Below are positions 17,340 through 63,238 of a stretch of 64,000 bases of DNA, in pieces. Location: assembly GCA_025765615.1 (NCBI GenBank), contig JAIVFJ010000078.1, positions 186,001 through 250,000 on the forward strand. The letters are read 5' to 3'. Each line of letters starts with the position of its first letter. Within the stretch, counting starts at the first letter, position 1. The notes under the pieces were generated by a model that worked only from the letters and a program-made list of their open reading frames with translations, was not told where the DNA came from and did no database searches. The position numbers and the translations under genes are program-made. The stretch is from Zopfochytrium polystomum (lineage: Eukaryota; Chytridiomycota; Chytridiomycetes; Chytridiales; Chytridiaceae).

Positions 17340-20300
17340 AAGTAGTATTGTGTGCCAGATAATGCCTGCAACAAGTTTTATGCAGCTGAGGTAGTGGTCA
17401 ATCCATCTGGAAGAAGCCTTGGTGCGCAAAAGCCAGATGCCTGGGCAATTGTCAGTGGAGTGCCAGCGACTTCACATGGTGCAGTGAGGTTGAGTTGTGA
17501 AGCGCTGTTACGAGTTCTGTGGGATGATGGAGTGGGAGGGAGAGAAGAGTTGACGATTGGAGAAGACAGTGAGAGTGAACAGAAAATAGGGGTGGACCAG
17601 AGTATTGGAAGAATGTTTGTTGGTTAAAAAGGAGGGGAATGAGAGACTTGGTGAAGTGTTTTTTTGTCTGGGACACGTGTAAGGGATGTGAGAAAACTGG
17701 AGTTCCAGAGGCCAGGTCAAGTTGGAGGTGGTGCATCATGATACAGCTTATGTGGCCAATGAGAGAGGGGGAGTTCAAGCAAGAGTTGAGGTCAACAATC
17801 ATGTCAGAGCAGTATTTGTTGTAAAGTCAGGGAGGTTATGGGTCATGGGGTGATGGAGGAGAGCATTGGAAAGGAGGTGCAGTAGCCAACCCGGCGTTTG
17901 AAAATTTTGCGACAGAGTGTGGTGAGGTTGTTGAGGAAAGTACGGGGGAGAATGGCAGTTTTCCACAAAAAGCAGACTCGCGGGAGGAGGACATTTTGGA
18001 TGAGGAAAGAAGCAATTTTGTCACCCATCTTTTTGTGTTTGATAATGTTGAGGAAATTGGTAGTGGTGGAAAGGATATGCTGCCTTGTTGCTGAGCTCAT
18101 ACCGTCTGCTGTGAAGTAGTTGCCTAGGTGTCGAAAGGGGGTGTTTGGGGGGTGGATGGGGAGGACTGTGGTGCCCCAGTTGATGGTAGTTGCTGTCGTT
18201 ATGTGACTGGTACTCCAAGAGGAGGTTGGCCTGAAGCTGCAGATCCTCCAAGATGCTAAAGAGGGTGTTGGTGTCGTCGACAAGGGCAAAGCCAGTAACA
18301 GAAACAGGGGGTGGGGGTTGAAGAATTGGACAGGAAAGTTATGAGGGGTGGGAACTGATGAAACGAAATCAGTGGTAAAACAATCAAGAACGCAAAGAAC
18401 AGGGTCCCAAAAGATACGCCAATCAAGGGGTCCCTCAAGGGAGCCTTGCTGAATCATGGTGTCAATGGGGAAGGAAGGGATGGGCCAAAAGCTGTGATGA
18501 CAGAGGGGCGAAAACGACGTTGGGAATTGACACGCATGTGAACATTAGAAGAGGGGAGGTGAAGACGTTCCCAGGAGGCAATGAGGCCAGCAACAGGGGT
18601 GCTGTCAAAAGCTTTCTTCATGTCATTGAGGAGAGGTATAAGGGCTGTTTAGTGGAATGGGCAAGGTCAAGGGCGTAGCGTACAAGGTGGAGAGGCGGGT
18701 CAGGAGAGGAGCCAGGGAGGGCAGAGAAGTTGCGACCAAGGAGTACATTGTGAGAAGAGAGGATGGAAGAGATACAAGAAAGGCGGATGGGCTGAACAAC
18801 TTTGGCAGCAAGTTTGCAGAGGCTGATTGGACGGAGGTTAGTGATGTCACATCCCACGCAGCTTTCTTGGGTATGGGGAAGATGGAGGAAGATGCCCAAG
18901 AGTCTGGGATGTCAAGGAAGAGAAAAGAGCAAATGATGAGGGAGGAGAAGAATGCAAGACCATCAGGACAGCTGTGAGGAGGAGCTCTCTGGAGATTTGC
19001 GAGGGGCCTGGGGCTGTGTTTGAGGCAAGGGATGTGAGAGCGTTTTTGACGTCGTTGGCAGAAGGGGGCAGCATAACCTTGGAGAAAAGATCTGGAGGGA
19101 TGTAGGGATGGGGTTGCATCTCAGAGTGAAATGGAGAGGATGGTGGGAAGGGAGTGAGGGTACGAGGGCGAAACCAGTGTTCAACCTGTTCTTGGCAGAT
19201 ACCAGGGACAAGGTCGGGATCGTGGGTGATTGAGGGACCTTCATCAGTATTGTAGCGAATGTGGTCAATGCTGGAGTTGCTAAGGATGTTGTTGAGGACA
19301 GTCTTTATCTTGCCAGAAGAGAAAAGGTTGTGTCTATGTGTGAGAGCTGTGGCAATGTCCTCCATTTTGTGCTTTTCTGCTGCCTGGCATTGGGCACAGT
19401 AGATGGCCTGGCAATGGCAGTTGAGGGTGGGGAGCAAAACATCACGATAGTCAGTTGTGTCAAAGAAGCGGGCTTTGTACCAAGAGTGGATGTGGGACAA
19501 GAAGGAGTAAGACTGATCAGCACCCCACTCAGATGGGGTCAAAGGAATGGAAGGGAAGATGTTAGCCAGATCATGCGCAGGGTCTTTGGTGAGTGCCCAC
19601 AGTTTCTCTACTTTCCAACGTGCAACAAGAAATGGTTTGGCGCGGCAATCTATCTTTGGCGCTGCTGAGGAGGTTCCCTTGTGAGGAAGGAACTTTTTGC
19701 CAAGCTGAAGCAGCAACTTGTGAAATGATGTGGAGAGTGTGTCAAGGTGGCTGATGTGGAGTGATGCACGTTCTGGGGAGGGGTATTGAAAGGGTAGGGA
19801 TGGAGAATGGAGGAACTCAAGCTCAGAGGGGTGAAGAATGCTGTCCAAGGCTGCAAGGGCTGCTGAGAGGGGGGGAAGCTCAAGTGAGACAGCTGATGTG
19901 TAATTGTCCAGTTGCTCTTCTGAAGCTTCCAAAAGTGTGGAAGGTGGAGGAAGCAAGGATTATGTTGAAGGGGAGGTCTGAAGTGTCAGTGAGATGGGGC
20001 TCTTCAAGTGGAGAAGAAATGTTAGCTTCAGTGACGAAGTCAAGAGCAGGTGGTGAGAGCCAAATGCTGTCCAAACGAGAGGAGTAGGAGCCAGCAGTGT
20101 GTGTGTAAGAGGGTAAGTCTGGGTGCCAGGTCTCAAAAGGAATCAACAAAGCCTTTCAGGGAGAGGGTGGGGAGGAACCTGTGGCGGGAAGGAGGTGTGG
20201 GGGCTCTGGTGGAGTGGTCAAGGGGGCCTGTGATGGCATTCCAGTCACCAGACCAGCAGGCTTGGTGGGGTGAGGTGGAGTCTGATGAAACAAGAGAGTT

Positions 20301-44889: not shown

Positions 44890-46199
44890 GTATGGGAAGC
44901 AGGCGGAAGTAAAAGCCCAACCTCATACCTATTCAATGCCCCTGCCCCCCACCACTCAAAATCCAGGTCGCCATCAGCAAAGTGATGGACCCGTCCGGCC
45001 ACAACTCGTTCCGCGCCATCGACCGCTGGGCCGCCCGCATGTCCGCCGACAACTCGACGCTGCGCCGTCGTGCTACCACGTCGTCGTCCGTGGCGCTCAC
45101 CAACAGCGACAACTTTTTGTACACGGCCCCCGTCACGCTCGGCAACGGACAGGCGTTCACGCTGGACCTCGACACGTTGAGTGTTGTGATTAATTTTTTT
45201 TCTTTGTTTTCTTACTTGCCTCTTTACGGCTGCGGACTAACTATAAATTACAACAGAGGGTCCTCCGACACCTGGTTCCGCGGCGCCGCCTGCCACTCCG
45301 CCGACCAATCCTGCGGCGTCGCCGGCCAACCCGCCGTCGCGACCACCACCGACAACACCCTGGTCGCAACGGGCAAGTCCTGGTCCACCACCTACGGCTC
45401 CGGCATGGTCGTCGGCAACATCTACACGGGGCCCGTCACCATGGCAGGCATGTCCGCCCGCATCCTCCTCGGCGTCACCACCCACGAGACAGGCTTCAAC
45501 ACCGTCGGCGACGGGCTCATGGGCCTCGCGTTCGCCGGGATTTCGAACATTGCGGCGGCGGCTGGGGCGGCCGGGGCGGCCGCGACGACGAGCTCGAATT
45601 GGATCGACGCGCTGGCGTTGCAGAACAACGTGTTTTCGTTCTACCTCTCGGCCGCCGCGAACGGGGACACGGGGGAAATGACCGTCGGCGGGATGGACCC
45701 CGCGCGCTTCACCGGCGCCGTCAACTACCACCCGCTCGTGTCCGAGACGTACTGGCAGCTCTCCTGGGCCGGCGGGACCTGGGCCGTCGGCGCCGCCGCC
45801 GCCGGCGCGCTGGACGGCGCCGTCAACTCGGTGATCGCCGACACCGGCACGTCCCTGGTCATCCTCGACACCGCGGCCGCGGCCGGCGTCAACGCGGCCA
45901 TCGGCGCCAAGTACTCGGCCGCCGTCGGCGCGTACGTGGTGCCCTGCAGCGTCGCGACCACCGGCCCTAACGTGACGCTGACCTTTGGCGGCGCCGCGTA
46001 CGCCATCCCCGCGAGCGTGTACGTGCTGAACGCCGGCACCACCGCGGCGGGGGCGGCGACGTGCATTTCCGGGTTTACGGCGGGCGCGGCGCAGGCGACG
46101 GTCGGGATTCTGGGCGACGTGTTTTTGCGGCAGTATTATAGCGTGTTTGATAAGGCGAACAAGCAGGTCGGGTTCGCGCTGGCGGTGCACCCGCAGTGA
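44664..46199 (+). CDS. Pepsin-type (A1) secreted aspartic protease
   Basis: Exons 44664-44810, 44967-45175 and 45257-46199 join in phase to 432 residues. A signal peptide (to about residue 28, 'VVAAP') and a propeptide precede the mature enzyme. Both active-site aspartates are present: 'LDLDTGSSDTW' (the DTG spans the second intron) and 'SVIADTGTSLVIL'. The flap region reads 'KSWSTTYGSGMVVGNIY', with the usual Tyr. The cysteine pair 'CHSADQSC' follows the first active site, as in pepsins, and 'VGILGDVFLRQYYSVFDKAN' near the end is typical. A secreted endopeptidase is expected, active at acid pH. It lacks a C-terminal GPI-type tail. Intron 1 uses a GC donor (gcaagt, phase 0) and intron 2 a GTTGAG donor. 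Confidence 0.93.
44849..44886 (+). repeat. Poly-T tract in protease intron 1
   Basis: About 37 consecutive T within the 156-base GC-AG intron 44811-44966. Confidence 0.9.
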
Positions 46200-51426: not shown

Positions 51427-53237
51427 ATGCACCCACCACCACCCCCAAGCCAAGCAAAACCCGGCGACGGCTGGGTCGACTCCGCATCGGAATCGTCCAA
51501 CATCGGCGGCTCCTACGATGCCCGCCTCCCGCCGCACCAGCAGCAGCACCTCGCAGCCGCCTCAAAGTACCAGCCCCACCCCCTCTCCAACGCCAGCAAG
51601 CCGGACCACACCGAGATCCCCGTCCCCCCACCCCCAGCCCCTTCCGGCGGCGGCGCCGTCTCGTACGCCTTTGCCGACTCCACCACCCTGCAAAAGGGCG
51701 TTCGCTCCCAACGGACGAACCTGGGAAATACCGCCGCCGTCATGGCCATCCTATCCGAGATGTGGCTCTTCAATCTGATATTCATCTTGGGTGGGGTCTA
51801 TCTGATGACTTTCTACCTGGGTGGCCTGCAGGTGTACGACGACTATAACCTGTGGACCACCGGCTGCTGGTGGAAGCTGGGTGAGTTGGTTGACCTGTCC
51901 CCTCCTGTTGTCACCTGTGTACTCCCCCTCGTAAAATTCCTCCTTTTGTACGAGTGCAAGGAAGCGGCGCTTCCACGCTTACCCCCTTGCCATCGGAACC
52001 GTTTGTCTCTCCCATCTCGATCGCTGCTTCCCCTCCCACTCCCCTCCCACTCGTTCTGCTTATTGAAAATTTTCCGTTTCCAACCCCACCAGGATGGCTA
52101 TTCCCTCTTCCGTACTCGCTCATCTGCTTCTTCGGGCTCGTCCTGCCCTTCCGCACTACAAAGTTCCTCGACTACGAACGGGAGGGTGTGAAGAAGCGCC
52201 GTGTGGACAACCTGTACATCCTTACCGTCACCAAGGGCGACAACCGCGAAGCCGTCTACCGGGCCTGGAATGCGCACAAGCACCTTGAGCGGTTGCACCC
52301 CTGCATCCGTGTGCACGTGCTGACGGACGAACCTTACTTTTTCGAAAACATCAACTGCTACACTTGCCCCAAGTCGTTCTCTACCGCCCACTCAAAGTAC
52401 AAGGCACGCGCTCTCGAGTGGTACCGCCAGACAATGCGGTACTCGGAGCACGACTGGATTCTTCACCTGGACGAGGAGTCTGTCATTGACGACGAGTCGA
52501 TCAAGAGGTGCCTGGAGTTTATCTGGTACGAGAAGGACTACCACTTTGGCCAAGGTGTCATCCTGTACAACCAGTACCGGTACTGGAGCAACTGGATCTA
52601 CACTGTTGCAGACGCCATCCGTGTCGGAGACGATCTGTCTCGCTTCCAGCTGCAGTACACTTACTTCCACCGCCCAATTTTCGGAGCGCACGGCTCCTTC
52701 CTGCTCACGAACGGCCTTGTAGAGAACGCCGTCACCTGGGACTTGGGCTCTCTTACAGAGGACTACCAGTTTGCGATGAAGTCGTGGGATCGTGGGTTCC
52801 GCTGCGGCAAAATTTGCGGCATCATTCGCGAGCAGTCGCCCATGGACTTTATAGGCTTTATGAAGCAGCGGCGCCGCTGGTATGTCGGCATCCGCCGCCT
52901 CCCGCAGCTCCTCCCGAAGATTTGGGCTGGTTTCTGGTCTCTTGGCATCGTCTCGCTGTATTGCACGATTGCGGCCATCATCCTAGGCTTCATTGTCCCG
53001 TACTCGACCCCTCGGTGGTTCGGCTTCTTGAAGGACCTTTCGTACGTCACGTTCGTCTACCTGTACCTGGTCGGCGTGTTCATCCAGGACGTCGACAAGG
53101 GCATCAACCCTTTGCTCGCGTTCCTCCGGATCCCGCTGACGTTTCTGGTGCAGTACATTGCCGTCGTCCTCGAGGGTCTTGCCGTCATGTACGGTATTCT
53201 CTTCCCTCCTGCGGACTTTGATGTCATCAAGAAGTAA
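51427..53237 (+). CDS. Egghead-like family 2 glycosyltransferase (beta-mannosyltransferase type)
   Basis: Two exons, 51427-51880 and 52093-53237, join in phase to 532 residues. A Pro/Ser/His-rich cytosolic N-terminus (about 110 residues) precedes two membrane segments ('LFNLIFILGGVYLMTFYLGG' and 'FPLPYSLICFFGLVLPF', the latter starting exon 2). The GT-A catalytic part follows, with 'HDWILHLDEES' (about 271, the acidic metal-binding loop), 'HFGQGVILYNQYRYWSNWIY', 'SLTEDYQFAMKSWDRGF' (TED, about 372) and 'FMKQRRRWYVGIRR' (QRRRW, about 410). Three to four C-terminal membrane spans end the protein. The order and wording match Drosophila egghead (beta-1,4-mannosyltransferase on glucosylceramide) better than chitin synthases, which share QRRRW but are much longer. 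A role in glycosphingolipid or wall glycan synthesis at an inner membrane is likely; the acceptor is unknown. Confidence 0.87.
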
Positions 53238-58010: not shown

Positions 58011-61000
58011 TCAGAAACAAACTAGGGAAGAAAAGCCACGACCCACAACGAAAATGTTTTGCCTTCTGATTAGTGTGAAACCACGTAATTCAGGTGGAAG
58101 CCAGAAACAGACTTTTGTGACATCAAAGATGAACCAAACACCATCCTGCATCACAGATTCAAGGACACCTTCCACATTCTGCAGTCGATGCCCAGACAAA
58201 TTACGCGCACTTATACACTGTGTCAGGCTACTCACAAAGGATGGACTTGTGATGGCATTTTCCTCCTCTGCAGGTAGTCCAGTCCCAAGTATGATTAGCT
58301 TTCTCTTGTCATTTCTGTCCCTTAAAACAACAGACAGCCCATCGGAACTGAATTCAGGAAACAATGTGAATGACAGGCCATCCAGCTTATGCAGCTCCTG
58401 GCCAGTGGATGCATTCCAAATCCTGATTGTTTTGTCATCACTTCCAGACACAACAAACTGGCCATCAGGACTGAATGCTGCAAATTTGACGCTACCAGAG
58501 TGTCCCTTCAGCAAATGCAGCTCCTGGCCAGTGGATGCATTCCAAATCCTGACTGTCTGGTCAGTGCTTCCAGACACAACCAACTGCCCATCAGGACTGA
58601 ATACTGCACAATTGACAAAAGAAGAGTGTCCAAAGAGCTTATGCAGCTCCTGGCCAGTTGATACATTCCAAATCCTGGCTGTCTTGTCATTACTTCCAGA
58701 CACAGCAAACTGCCCATTAGGACTGAATGCTGCAAATTTGACACTACCAGAGTGTCCCTTCAGCTTACGCACCTCCTCCCCAGTGGATGCTTTCCAAATT
58801 CTGATTGTCTGGTCATTGCTTCCAGACACAACAAGCTGCCCATCAGGACTGAATACTGCACAATTGACATAATCAGAGTGTCCTTCCAGCTTAAGCAGCT
58901 CCTGGCCAGTTGATACATTCCAAATCCTGACTGTCCTGTCAAGACTTCCAGACACAACCAACTCCCCATCTGGACTGAATGCTACAGATAAGACAACACC
59001 TGAGTGTCCCTTTGGCTTATGCTGCTCCTTGCCAGTGGATGTATTCCAGATCCTGATTGCCTGGTCATTGCTTCCAGACACAACAAACTGCCCATCAGGA
59101 CTGAATGCTACACAGTTGACATAAGAGGAGTGACCCTCCAGCTTTTGCAGCTCCTTGCCAGTGGATGCATTCCAAATCCTGATTGTCTTGTCATAACTAC
59201 CAGTCGCAATAAACTGCCCATCAGGACTGAATACTACAGATAAGACACCATCTGAATGTCCCTCCAATTGATGCAGCTCCTGGCCAGTAGATGCATTCCA
59301 GATCCGTACTGACTCATCATTACTTCCAGACACAACAAACTGCCCATCTGGACTGAATGCTACCGAATTAACAGCAAAAGAGTGTCCATCCAGCTTTTGC
59401 AGTTCCTGGCCAGTGGATGCATTCCAAATCCTGACAGTCTTGTCACTACTTCCAGACACAATAAACTGCCGATCAGGGCTGAATATAGCAAAATTGACAC
59501 TACCAGAGTGACCCTCCAGCGTATGCAGCTCCTGGCCAGTGCATGCATCCCAAATCCTGACTGTTGTATCTTCACTTCCAGACACAACCAACTCCCCATC
59601 AGAACTAAATGCTGCAAAAATGACAGTGCCAGAGTGTCGCTCCAGCTTTTGCAGTTCCTGGCCAGTGGACGCATTCCAGATCCTGACTGTCTTGTCATTA
59701 CTTCCAGACACAACAAACTGCCCATCAGGACTGAATGCCGCAGAGTTGACCCAAGAAGAGTGTCCCTCCAGCTTCAGCAGCTCCTGGCCAGTCAATGCAT
59801 TCCAAATCCTGATCGTCTGGTCACCACTTCCAGACACAACAAACTGCCCATCTGGACTGAACGCTACAAATTTGACACTACCAGTGTGTCCCTCAAGAAT
59901 GTTTAAACAGGAGGGCCAAGATTTCAGTTGCCCCTTTACAACTTTAGGGCATGACACTCTTCCAGGCACTTTCTGAACAAATGTCTTGAAAAATTCAGAG
60001 TTGCTTGGGGAGAAGGGTACAGCTGTGAAGTAAACTTGCAACGCAGATGCCTTGAGTGGAATGAGAAACTTTTGGACAACCCTTTTCATGTCTTCCATGA
60101 GGGTGTGCAGTCTGTGCTTCTTGTCAGGAACTAGCGTTTGGAGCTTTGTCATGGCAGGAATCACCATGTTGAGGCAGTCTAGCAAGCTGCAGACTTCAAG
60201 GAAATGATGTCCATGTTGCACAAGAAAGTCATGCATTTCACCAAAAAGAGTGTGATCAAGCAAATATGATGGAGTTGTTGAAATGGGCTTCTTGATTGCA
60301 TCTTCTTGCAAATCTTTGTCAGGAATAATTGCCCTGGCCCCTTCAAATATTTGTGGAGCAAGCTTCATAGTTCCTGGTGGAATCAGATTGTCTTCTGCAT
60401 CAAACCACGTTTCACTATCATCACTATCTTCTGGATCATTCTGTCCAGTATCTTGGCTGTGTTTGGGTAGGCCTTTGGCTCCGAGTCCTGACTCAACACA
60501 GTGCTCCCAGAAATGTTTGACTGCATATCTGACATGCTCAGGAATTCCTTTGTGCACCTTATCATCAAAATCAGGAGTTTCAGAGTGGAAATCTGAGAAT
60601 GGCAGATCACAAATATTAAATTTCAGGTTCTTGTCCATGGAACCGATGCACAGCATTGCAACAGCGGAATGACCACTTTTCAGTTCAATCTTAACAGACA
60701 GCTTGCATCTTTCTGCAGTTGTCAGGTAGTCCTTGACAGACTTGTGGAACAGCCTGATTTTCTTCGTTGAACCGTCAAGCACAAGGATGGGATCAAGCAT
60801 GCGGATGCACCTCATCACAGTTTCAGGGTTCTCCTTGTCCAGCAGAGAGACAATGGCTGCTGCAGTCAGAGGCTCATAGACCAGACCAATGATTGATAAC
60901 ACGGCATGAAAAAGTGTTTCCAAATGGCTCTTTTTGATCGATGGAAGTATGCCTTGGAATATCCTATCATACATCGTGTCAATGCTTTCATCCAGCTTGG

Positions 61001-63238
61001 AGCCCTCAGGAAGGTCTTCAATTTGCCCAATGGTGATTTCCTCAGCCTCTAATTTCTGCAAGTAAGTGCAAGCAGTCACAAGCCAGACAAAAATTCCAGC
61101 AGACTTTGATACCAGAATCTTGGATCCCTCATCAACAACAAGTTGCTCAGCATTCAATGACCTGAGGAAATCTCTTGTGAACTCAATCTGGTCCTGAGTG
61201 TTCTCTTCAGTTGTTGGCACAATTTCCTCAAAAGGAATTTTCTCAAAGGCTTTCACAATATCTTCTTCAGGGCGTCCAGTCACCAGCAACTTCACATTGG
61301 CTGGAAGCAGCCTGTTCAGCTCTTGAAACACTGAGAGAATCTCATTCCTCTTGCCAATTGCGCCACACTCGTCGAGGGCATCCACAACCAGTACTACAGG
61401 CACATTCAGCTTCTTGGATTCAAAAACCTCCTCCAATGGCTGAACAAGCAGCACTTTCATCATCTCAAACACAGATCTGGACAGAATATCTGGATTTTCT
61501 TGCTTGAATTGCAGCAGAATCTCTCCATACTGAATATTGAACCTGGCAAGACCAAACACGAGGGTCAAGACCAGGTTGCGTGCACTGCTTCGACCCTCAT
61601 CATCATGCTTGCAGAAGAACAAGCCTCCAAGCATGTTTTTGGCCTGCAGCTCCCTGGAGACCATGGCAGCCATCACAGACTTGCCCACTCCAGCCACTCC
61701 TTTCAACCACATCACCCTGTTGGCACTGGTTTCTGAAGGATTATCTGGAGACAGAAATTGGAACACTTTCTTGACCAGCCACTGCCTGGATCCAGAGAGC
61801 ACATTCTTCAGGAGGGCTTGCCTCGCAACATCCATCTGCTCAGACAGAGGCATCAACCATTTCTCCAATTCAGACAAACTGGACCTGGAAAGTGAAATAT
61901 CTGCGCGTGGACTTGGAATTTTCGTATATGCCTTGCGGCGACTGTACAATTCTCTTGCTTCAGTCACAATCCTTAATATTTTCAAGTTGATCAGAGCTGG
62001 ATAATCAACAGTGTGCAGACACTTACTTCCCAACATCACTCTCGGGATGAGCCTTTGGCCCATTCAGCTCCAGAATCATCTTCACAGTTTCAGACACAGT
62101 TTGCAGGCCAGGGCTCAGCGGGTGTGCATGTGGCCGGTCAGGAAACTTGGCGTGATCAAAAGTGCTAAAGTTTTGCACCAACAAGGCCTTCCTCCCGTCA
62201 TCAAGAGTGGCCATCACTGTGCCTGAAAGAAGAATGGGCAGAATATCATGGCCTTTTTCCTCCTTCATCTGAAGTGCCAGCTCCCACTGAAGTCGTGTGT
62301 CAGATTGGAATGTAGGATGATTTGGGAGTGCTGTTTCTCACCTCCAGCAAACAGTTGTCTGGTTTTTCATCAGCCTCACGCATTCGCCCCATACTTGCAT
62401 CAGAGCAGAGGAGAATAATCACAGTAGAGTGAAAGAGTCCGGACATGAAGTTGACTCCCCACTTCTGGCCAAATGCAAGGCACTTTGCATCCCAAAATGG
62501 GTGCAGACCAAACATTTTGGACTCCTCAGCTCTGAAATCTTTCAACAGAGCTTCGTGTATCTCGTGGAACAGATCCTTGGCAACGACAGTCTCTGACGCC
62601 TGACGGTAGCTACAACAACAGTCAGTTGGAATGGTGGAACTGAAGGAGTATTGGGCAGACCTGATGAAGAAAGGATGTTTCTGAACAGCTGTTTTGCATT
62701 GCCAATCCTCTGGAATCAGTTCAATCCATTTATCTGTGGAACGAGAAGTTAAGCACTGATATGCAAGGATCATTTAAAACAGCTTACCTTTCTTGCACTC
62801 AAGAGTCTCATCATGCTTATTGTCCTCAGCAACATCAGCAGTGGCAGCACTGTCTGCACAGTCAGAATCTTTGTGAGAGGGCCCCGTTACACCAGGAGTA
62901 CTCATGACAGCGGCAGCAGCACCGCTTGCAGTGGAGCTCTGGGAGTTCTCTGCAGCAAGTACCTTCAAAATTGTGAGAATGACAAACACAGATGAGAAGC
63001 AAAATGGCCATACCTTCCACTTGAAATTCTGAGAAAGCAAGCTGGGGAGATCATCATCCACATCAAGGACCATCTCATCACCAGTTGCAGGATCAACATA
63101 CACCAACTCAATGGAAGCAGCAATCTTCCAGCGGGTGGCCACAAGCTGAAGCAAATCATCAAGACAAGTTGTTGCAGGAACAGATATCCTCCTGTTTTTT
63201 CCACCGTACTCAAAAATTGCAGTCCATGCAGTTGCCAT
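58011..63238 (-). CDS. NLR-type receptor: PB1-like, TIR, NACHT and WD40 repeats
   Basis: Five minus-strand exons (63238-63014, 62962-62788, 62733-62342, 62286-62027, 61941-58011) join in phase to about 1660 residues. Residues 4-75 look like a PB1 domain ('YVDPATGDEMVLDVDDDLPS' is an OPCA-like acidic loop). An Ala/Ser/Asp linker follows. Residues about 168-320 form a TIR domain: 'CSYRQASETVVAKDLFHEIH', 'HPFWDAKCLAFGQKWGVNFM', 'STVIILLCSD', and 'DNCLLEWELAL' across the exon 3/4 joint, then 'DILPILLSG'. The NACHT domain has Walker A 'GVAGVGKS' at 432-439 and Walker B 'VVLVVDALDECG' at 533-544. From about 1030 to 1540 there are twelve near-identical 42-residue WD40 repeats and a thirteenth decayed one. 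In known NLRs the repeats sense, NACHT oligomerises and TIR signals or cleaves NAD; whether this TIR is catalytic cannot be read from sequence. It is less GC-rich than neighbouring genes. Confidence 0.9.
58380..59905 (-). repeat. Tandem 126-bp repeats encoding WD40 units
   Basis: Twelve consecutive 126-bp units within the last exon. Blocks such as 'ctcctggccagtggatgc' (plus strand) recur almost unchanged. Encoded consensus: GHS, two or three variable residues, then AFSPDGQFVVSGS, xDxTVRIWNASTGQELxKL. Variation concentrates at a few positions after GHS and after SGS. Confidence 0.92.

Follow-up and report, generated by a model that had tools for sequence, protein, structure and literature searches.

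What kind of protein is encoded at 58011-63238 on the minus strand of the window, the whole 64,000-nucleotide stretch of DNA analysed here from the chytrid Zopfochytrium polystomum (Chytridiomycota, Chytridiales), and how would it signal? A sequence-only reading had proposed a fungal TIR-NACHT-WD40 receptor of the NOD-like receptor (NLR) type with an N-terminal PB1 domain, encoded by one gene, and this assignment is borne out by Pfam matches and by 19 of 20 paralogs. The gene consists of six exons and yields an open frame of 1,653 amino acids, in which PB1, TIR, NACHT and twelve 42-residue WD40 units follow one another. Its sequence features make it probable that the protein is a hypervariable WD40 sensor which, once oligomerised, signals through PB1/TIR contacts instead of a NAD-cleaving (NADase) activity of its own.

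One gene in a large family

The exons are joined across five GT-AG introns of 51, 54, 51, 55 and 55 nt (Table 1). The earlier model of five minus-strand exons keeps its coordinates but not its exon count. Specifically, intron 1 measures 49-75 nt in 20 paralogs, with a length that is not a multiple of three in 18 of them, and the five-exon model was ruled out because retention of this intron would shift the frame in those 18. Readthrough is possible in the window copy, since its intron 1 has 51 nt and no stop.

For comparison, the 20 paralogs were fetched with their flanks from the window's own assembly (80.16 Mb, 761 contigs), the genome searched here, and their gene models were built with splice patterns. 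The PB1 exon, NACHT and WD40 occur in all 20 and the TIR exons in 19, and these 19 TIR-bearing copies carry five introns at matching places, with varying lengths. The remaining copy, L023 on contig C9, has no TIR and shows a clean join of the PB1 exon to the NACHT exon. Genome-wide, we obtained 135 matches to the PB1 exon, 129 to the TIR exons (E<=0.01) and 150 to NACHT (150 of 188 candidates scored), and the three are co-linear on a single strand at no fewer than 92 places on 76 contigs. Additionally, there are partial loci, namely eight with PB1 and NACHT but no TIR match, ten with PB1 and TIR but no NACHT match, and 13 with TIR and NACHT but no PB1. These counts are matches and lower bounds, and some loci are split in two. 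Since the exon-intron pattern repeats in 19/20 paralogs and at these 92 co-linear places, the fusion is not due to chance; a chance frame or wrong fusion was ruled out by the same recurrence. The earlier concern that the PB1/TIR exons might belong to a separate gene is answered by paralog comparison, by which they appear to join the NACHT exon. Together, the matches put the family at an estimated hundred or so loci in Z. polystomum, some of them broken; neither this size nor the het-e-like hypervariable codons described below had been noticed in the sequence-only reading.

The fetched copies differ in integrity. An open frame of at least 1,431 amino acids is present in 11 of the 20, while L009 (1,298 amino acids) and L013 (1,035 amino acids) end inside or ahead of the WD40 repeats; early stops are found in L010, L016, L022, L024 and L028, exon 1 of L018 is frameshifted, and L017 is without a complete model. 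Those family gene models in public annotation that were inspected (P0001-P0005 and P0019-P0023) are split or shortened. P0019 is identical to our model of copy L012 across the first 437 residues, both lying on C18.

Further loci with PB1 and NACHT at short spacing and no TIR match lie on C79, C63 (position 260126), C257 and C182. As for placement, the midpoints of 18 of 21 copies (the window's and the 20 fetched) are no more than 35 kb from the end of a contig, which may be subtelomeric or an assembly effect, and on contigs longer than 200 kb this holds within 40 kb for eight of ten copies against 2.1 expected. We draw no conclusion from this placement, since assemblies also break at repeats.

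PB1 and TIR domains and the missing glutamate

The Pfam check of the spliced product proposed earlier returned PB1 (24.7 bits, cut-off 23.6), TIR_2 (32.1 bits, cut-off 28, spanning exons 3-5) and NACHT (27.5 bits, cut-off 26.7), each just over its cut-off. Because these three barely pass, and because the genome-wide Pfam searches, in which exon boundaries interrupt the TIR, list 35 PB1 and 85 TIR_2 matches but neither the PB1 nor the TIR exon of the window, family and fold tests carry the domain case. The PB1 model matches eight of eight family members including the window's, and the TIR_2 model likewise matches 8/8, both at E<=0.1. A profile search identifies the PB1 of Arabidopsis NBR1 (E 2.7e-5). 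The first fold prediction (P0019, five rows) gave a mean predicted local distance difference test (pLDDT) score of 49.1, with a poor TIR half and only the PB1 usable; its residues 1-80 (block pLDDT 58-87) adopt a predicted beta-grasp fold of PB1 topology, and the best fold match is the MEKK3 PB1 (2c60, E 3.6e-3), among other ubiquitin-like folds. P0022 was folded after P0019. The TIR fold that the earlier reading had asked structure prediction to find is present in the model of a close paralog, as distinct from the window's own protein, and the folds predicted to be closest to it are the TIRs of SARM1 and of plant TIR-type NLRs (TNLs), which are NADases (PMC7282519). The family TIR profile alone (A2) gave no match at E<=1 among PDB sequences, and with three Glu-bearing relatives added (A4) it matched tir-1 and SARM1.

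The family TIR differs from these enzymes at a defining residue. Gly209 of the window protein aligns to the SARM1 Glu in the profile alignment and to the W-E Glu of relatives, and E642 is the putative catalytic Glu of SARM1 (PMC7282519). Among the 19 TIR-bearing fetched copies this position holds Gly in 17, Asp in two and Glu in none, and the relatives P0006, P0024 and P0025 retain Glu in the same alignment. The proposal that the TIR could cleave NAD is thus not upheld: judged by its defining residue, the family TIR is predicted not to be a TIR NADase. Plant TIRs without this Glu, such as that of RRS1, appear to be sensor-type TNLs acting through a competent partner (PMC7282519). The scaffold role, the other option raised before, is favoured, since Gly or Asp stands in place of the Glu, plant Glu-less TIRs appear to be sensors, and Glu-bearing TIRs exist in the genome. 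The chytrid family shares with sensor-type TNLs an NLR whose TIR lacks this Glu, and the plant receptors work with a genomically paired, signal-competent partner. Two other Z. polystomum proteins, P0006 and P0007, share TIR, NACHT and WD40 with the family and are related to it, with 31% identity across half of residues 1-760; in contrast, their precomputed domains include no PB1, and they keep the Glu (PWEDGF; P0006 by alignment, P0007 by motif). The P0006 TIR has two strong genome matches, on C32 (94%) and C72 (77%), so that its nearest match is 94%, not 100%.

Divergence between copies was measured by domain as the ratio of nonsynonymous to synonymous change (dN/dS) over 54-55 pairs of 11 genes, with L009, L013 and L023 as well as L010, L016, L017, L018, L022, L024 and L028 excluded. 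The median is 0.16 for TIR (range 0.08-0.46), 0.24 for NACHT (0.13-0.43) and 0.36 for PB1 (0.12-1.31). The N-terminus is therefore mostly under constraint, and a degenerating N-terminus was ruled out by the TIR value. Between copies the median dS is about 0.72-0.75 for the N-terminal exons and 0.30 for the NACHT part, and different domains have different nearest paralogs (Spearman 0.04 between PB1 and the middle part), a pattern that fits conversion or module exchange between copies.

Two other sets of TIR loci were observed. The strongest TIR_2 scores in the genome (72-86 bits) belong to another type, found at several clustered places on C241, C162, C250, C415, C94, C50 and C52; five of ten loci examined start like MISYxWxD. 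In a second TIR-NACHT family, TIR_2 matches precede NACHT matches (43-49% identity) by about 0.4 kb, and most sit in frames of some 400 amino acids. It comprises about 25 copies by eye, none of them in the PB1-linked set, on C18 (six or seven places), C57, C436, C325, C16, C19, C88, C398, C67, C11, C570 and others.

NACHT and a hypervariable WD40 array

The NTPase domain is better recognised by NPHP3_N (cut-off 24.8) than by NACHT. By eye in the alignment it contains GVAGVGKS and VVLVVDALDE, which we take to be the P-loop and Walker B motifs, and the P-loop is intact. Pfam finds WD40 in 12 stretches, and a tandem-repeat finder returns a period of 126 with 12.0 copies. The 12 regular 42-residue units, with a mean identity of 69% in amino acids and 81% in nucleotides, and a degenerate 13th unit seen by eye after them agree with the 12-13 repeats counted earlier.

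Variation among 106 units of 13 genes peaks at positions 6, 7, 9, 25 and 27, followed by 5 and 2, while neighbouring positions are nearly fixed (position 8 is V in 101 units and position 26 is D in 103). This analysis left out L010, L016, L022, L024 and L028 (early stops), L013 (no units by pattern), and L017 and L018 (incomplete models). Codons 7, 9, 25 and 27 were set beforehand from work on Podospora, and position 6 was added after the data were seen. The comparison is limited to 32 positions because the repeat pattern fixes the rest (4, 13, 14, 16, 22-24 and 30-32). By simple counting, not a likelihood test, the ratio of nonsynonymous to synonymous polymorphism (pN/pS) is 1.65 (1.16-2.68) at the four codons versus 0.54 at the other free positions, and all four rank within the top five of the 32. 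Their four-residue combination is distinct in 99 of the 106 units, and the remaining positions are alike in 92% of cases within genes and 91% between genes. Simple counting on codons that are close to saturation supports diversification but does not amount to a likelihood test.

In the Podospora family, codons 7, 9, 25 and 27 are positively selected around conserved positions 8 and 26 and sit atop the WD40 propeller (Paoletti et al. 2007, PMC1805685); positive selection at those codons is also described in PMC2873952. The chytrid array is best regarded as a recognition array of this kind, since the same codons are those under positive selection in Podospora het-d/het-e. The HNWD family of Podospora anserina (HET-E, HET-D, HET-R) likewise has NACHT followed by highly similar WD40 units, variation at the four codons, and a multigene family with broken members. 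The window gene should therefore work like an HNWD-type NLR. The family is, however, not a member of HNWD because the HET domain is absent: the N-terminal pieces have no HET model among their matches, and PB1-TIR stands where HNWD proteins have HET. It also comprises about 100 loci, compared with the ten members of the Podospora NWD family, and its host is a chytrid, not an ascomycete.

Proposed function and its rivals

For a WD40 sensor that signals by PB1/TIR contacts, we envisage that the propeller binds a changing ligand through residues 6, 7, 9, 25 and 27 of each blade. The ligand would be an effector of microbial origin or a host protein that such effectors hit, and its binding would free NACHT to oligomerise. 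The clustered TIR and PB1 domains would then form a platform on which the PB1 may recruit a PB1 partner or form chains, and the family TIR may pair with another TIR protein in the cell that retains the Glu, for example the TIR-NACHT-WD40 proteins P0006 and P0007. The output would probably be an immune response such as regulated cell death, and we consider defence against other organisms a likelier role than allorecognition.

Several points weigh against this proposal. Co-signalling with Glu-bearing TIRs is something we infer, and the Asp of two copies could keep weak activity. Type II PB1 domains are recognised by a Lys in strand 1 and type I by an acidic OPCA motif; the family has no Lys in strand 1 where NBR1 has one in the profile alignment, and its acidic motif is partial, with D49 and D63 invariant in 8/8 members, so a type I-like surface is a guess. 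The Pfam PB1 score barely exceeds its cut-off, the fold search with the P0019 PB1 gave no match at E<=0.001, and single PB1 pairs reach a dN/dS of 1.31. The pN/pS counting is rough on saturated codons, and the hypervariable sites could reflect relaxed constraint and biased exchange between repeats. Seven of the 20 copies have early stops, a frameshift or an incomplete model and two more end inside or before the repeats, so some family loci are nonfunctional. Several annotated proteins split the gene.

That last point bears on the rival in which PB1-TIR and NACHT-WD40 are adjacent genes, or in which frequent retention of intron 5 yields a short PB1-TIR protein beside NACHT-WD40. Retention in the window would bring a stop directly after exon 5, P0020 (329 amino acids) ends exactly at the intron 5 donor, P0002-P0005 begin inside exon 6, and a search with residues 1-334 matched none of 3,739 full-length candidates at E<=0.01. 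However, P0019, P0022 and P0023 span the joint, intron 5 is found in 19/19 TIR-bearing fetched paralogs, the exon 6 stretch ahead of the first Met is well conserved by eye, and L023 joins PB1 to exon 6 even without a TIR. We give this rival a slim chance. Annotation pipelines split the gene, as the end of P0020 and the starts of P0002-P0005 show. An alternative at the level of biology, that the family serves allorecognition (vegetative incompatibility) like het-d/het-e and not defence, draws on the same variable WD40 codons and on a large multigene family with broken copies. Vegetative incompatibility, however, requires somatic cell fusion, of which we know of no report in chytrids, and the number of loci far exceeds the ten of Podospora; we consider it improbable.

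The two other rivals concern the N-terminus. The TIR might be an active NAD-cleaving or nucleotide-making enzyme through another acidic residue, which would make the receptor its own executioner, as in plant TNLs. The nearest folds are those of NADases, the domain is under strong constraint and two copies carry Asp, but the Gly of the other 17, at a position where P0006, P0024 and P0025 keep Glu, leaves such an enzyme unlikely. The PB1 and Glu-less TIR might instead be integrated decoys that serve as bait for effectors directed at genuine PB1/TIR proteins, and both the missing catalytic residue and the greater divergence of the N-terminal exons would suit bait. The two domains nevertheless sit at the usual signalling end, away from the sensor, the TIR dN/dS is low, and hypervariability is located in the WD40 units, which makes decoys a very doubtful explanation.

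A wider and more tentative proposal extends the WD40 sensor that signals by PB1/TIR contacts. About a hundred fast-diversifying intracellular sensors of an early-branching zoosporic fungus may share the HET-E recognition surface and have given up enzymatic TIR signalling; the conserved dead TIR and PB1 would be a dedicated platform converging on a few Glu-bearing TIR executors, a sensor/helper NLR network independent of plants, and WD40 arrays of this sort would have served defence first, not allorecognition. Fungal biology has yet to settle whether it was for immunity or for allorecognition that HET-E-like WD40 arrays evolved; diversification at the same four codons in a large family of a chytrid, remote from Podospora, makes the question testable in a lineage for which cell fusion is not known to us. 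In addition, the family is a fungal case in which the TIR of an NLR is conserved yet lacks its catalytic residue, much as in plant sensor TNLs, and it reveals abundant NLRs, obscured in public annotation by split or shortened gene models, in a phylum for which the accessible text of a 2014 survey gives no NLR matches in chytrids (Dyrka et al. 2014, PMC4986451).

The arrangement had been thought undescribed. This holds for fungi in the open-licence literature searched, where we found no fungal PB1-TIR-NACHT-WD40 and no chytrid TIR-NACHT-WD40 NLR, and where no title among papers naming Zopfochytrium concerns NLRs; it does not hold more widely, since a PB1-TIR-NB-ARC protein, AsTIR19, is published for wild peanut, Arachis stenosperma (PMC9786959). 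AsTIR19 and AsTIR57 resemble the family in combining PB1, TIR and a nucleotide-binding domain, with PB1 N-terminal in AsTIR19, but are truncated plant NLRs with NB-ARC, and the PB1 is called there a potential integrated domain (PMC9786959). A 2022 survey of fungal NLRs lists Crinkler (ubiquitin-clan) and TIR-like N-termini, the TIR-like cluster, unlike the present family, coming from Pezizomycotina; its main text has no occurrence of PB1 and, as far as accessible, a single passing sentence on TIR in Chytridiomycota NLRs (Wojciechowski et al. 2022, PMC9815663).

Table 1 Positions of the receptor gene's parts in the window
Feature	Position	Strand	Description
Exon 1	63014..63238	-	Start codon and PB1 domain, residues 1-75, Pfam match 9-70
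Intron 1	62963..63013	-	51 nt; in frame and stop-free in the window copy
Exon 2	62788..62962	-	Low-complexity linker, about residues 76-134; median dN/dS 0.51
Exon 3	62661..62733	-	TIR start, first strand HPFFIS
Exon 4	62342..62609	-	TIR core
Gly209 codon	62456..62458	-	Position of the catalytic Glu in TIR NADases; family and SARM1 profile alignments
Exon 5	62027..62286	-	TIR end and segment preceding NACHT
Intron 5	61972..62026	-	Joint of the PB1-TIR module to NACHT; retention gives an immediate stop (AAG TAA)
Exon 6	58011..61971	-	NACHT, middle part, WD40 array, C-terminus with FWLPPELRG
NACHT / NPHP3_N NTPase	61254..61790	-	NPHP3_N 93.3 bits, NACHT 27.5 bits
Twelve 42-residue WD40 units	58386..59897	-	Residues 1026-1529; hypervariable at 6, 7, 9, 25, 27

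Elsewhere in the window, three open frames were assigned by eye: 44982-46199 (+) is pepsin-type aspartic protease-like, 51954-53237 (+) is like a GT2-type membrane glycosyltransferase, and 18847-19956 (-) resembles a piece of a LINE-type retrotransposon.

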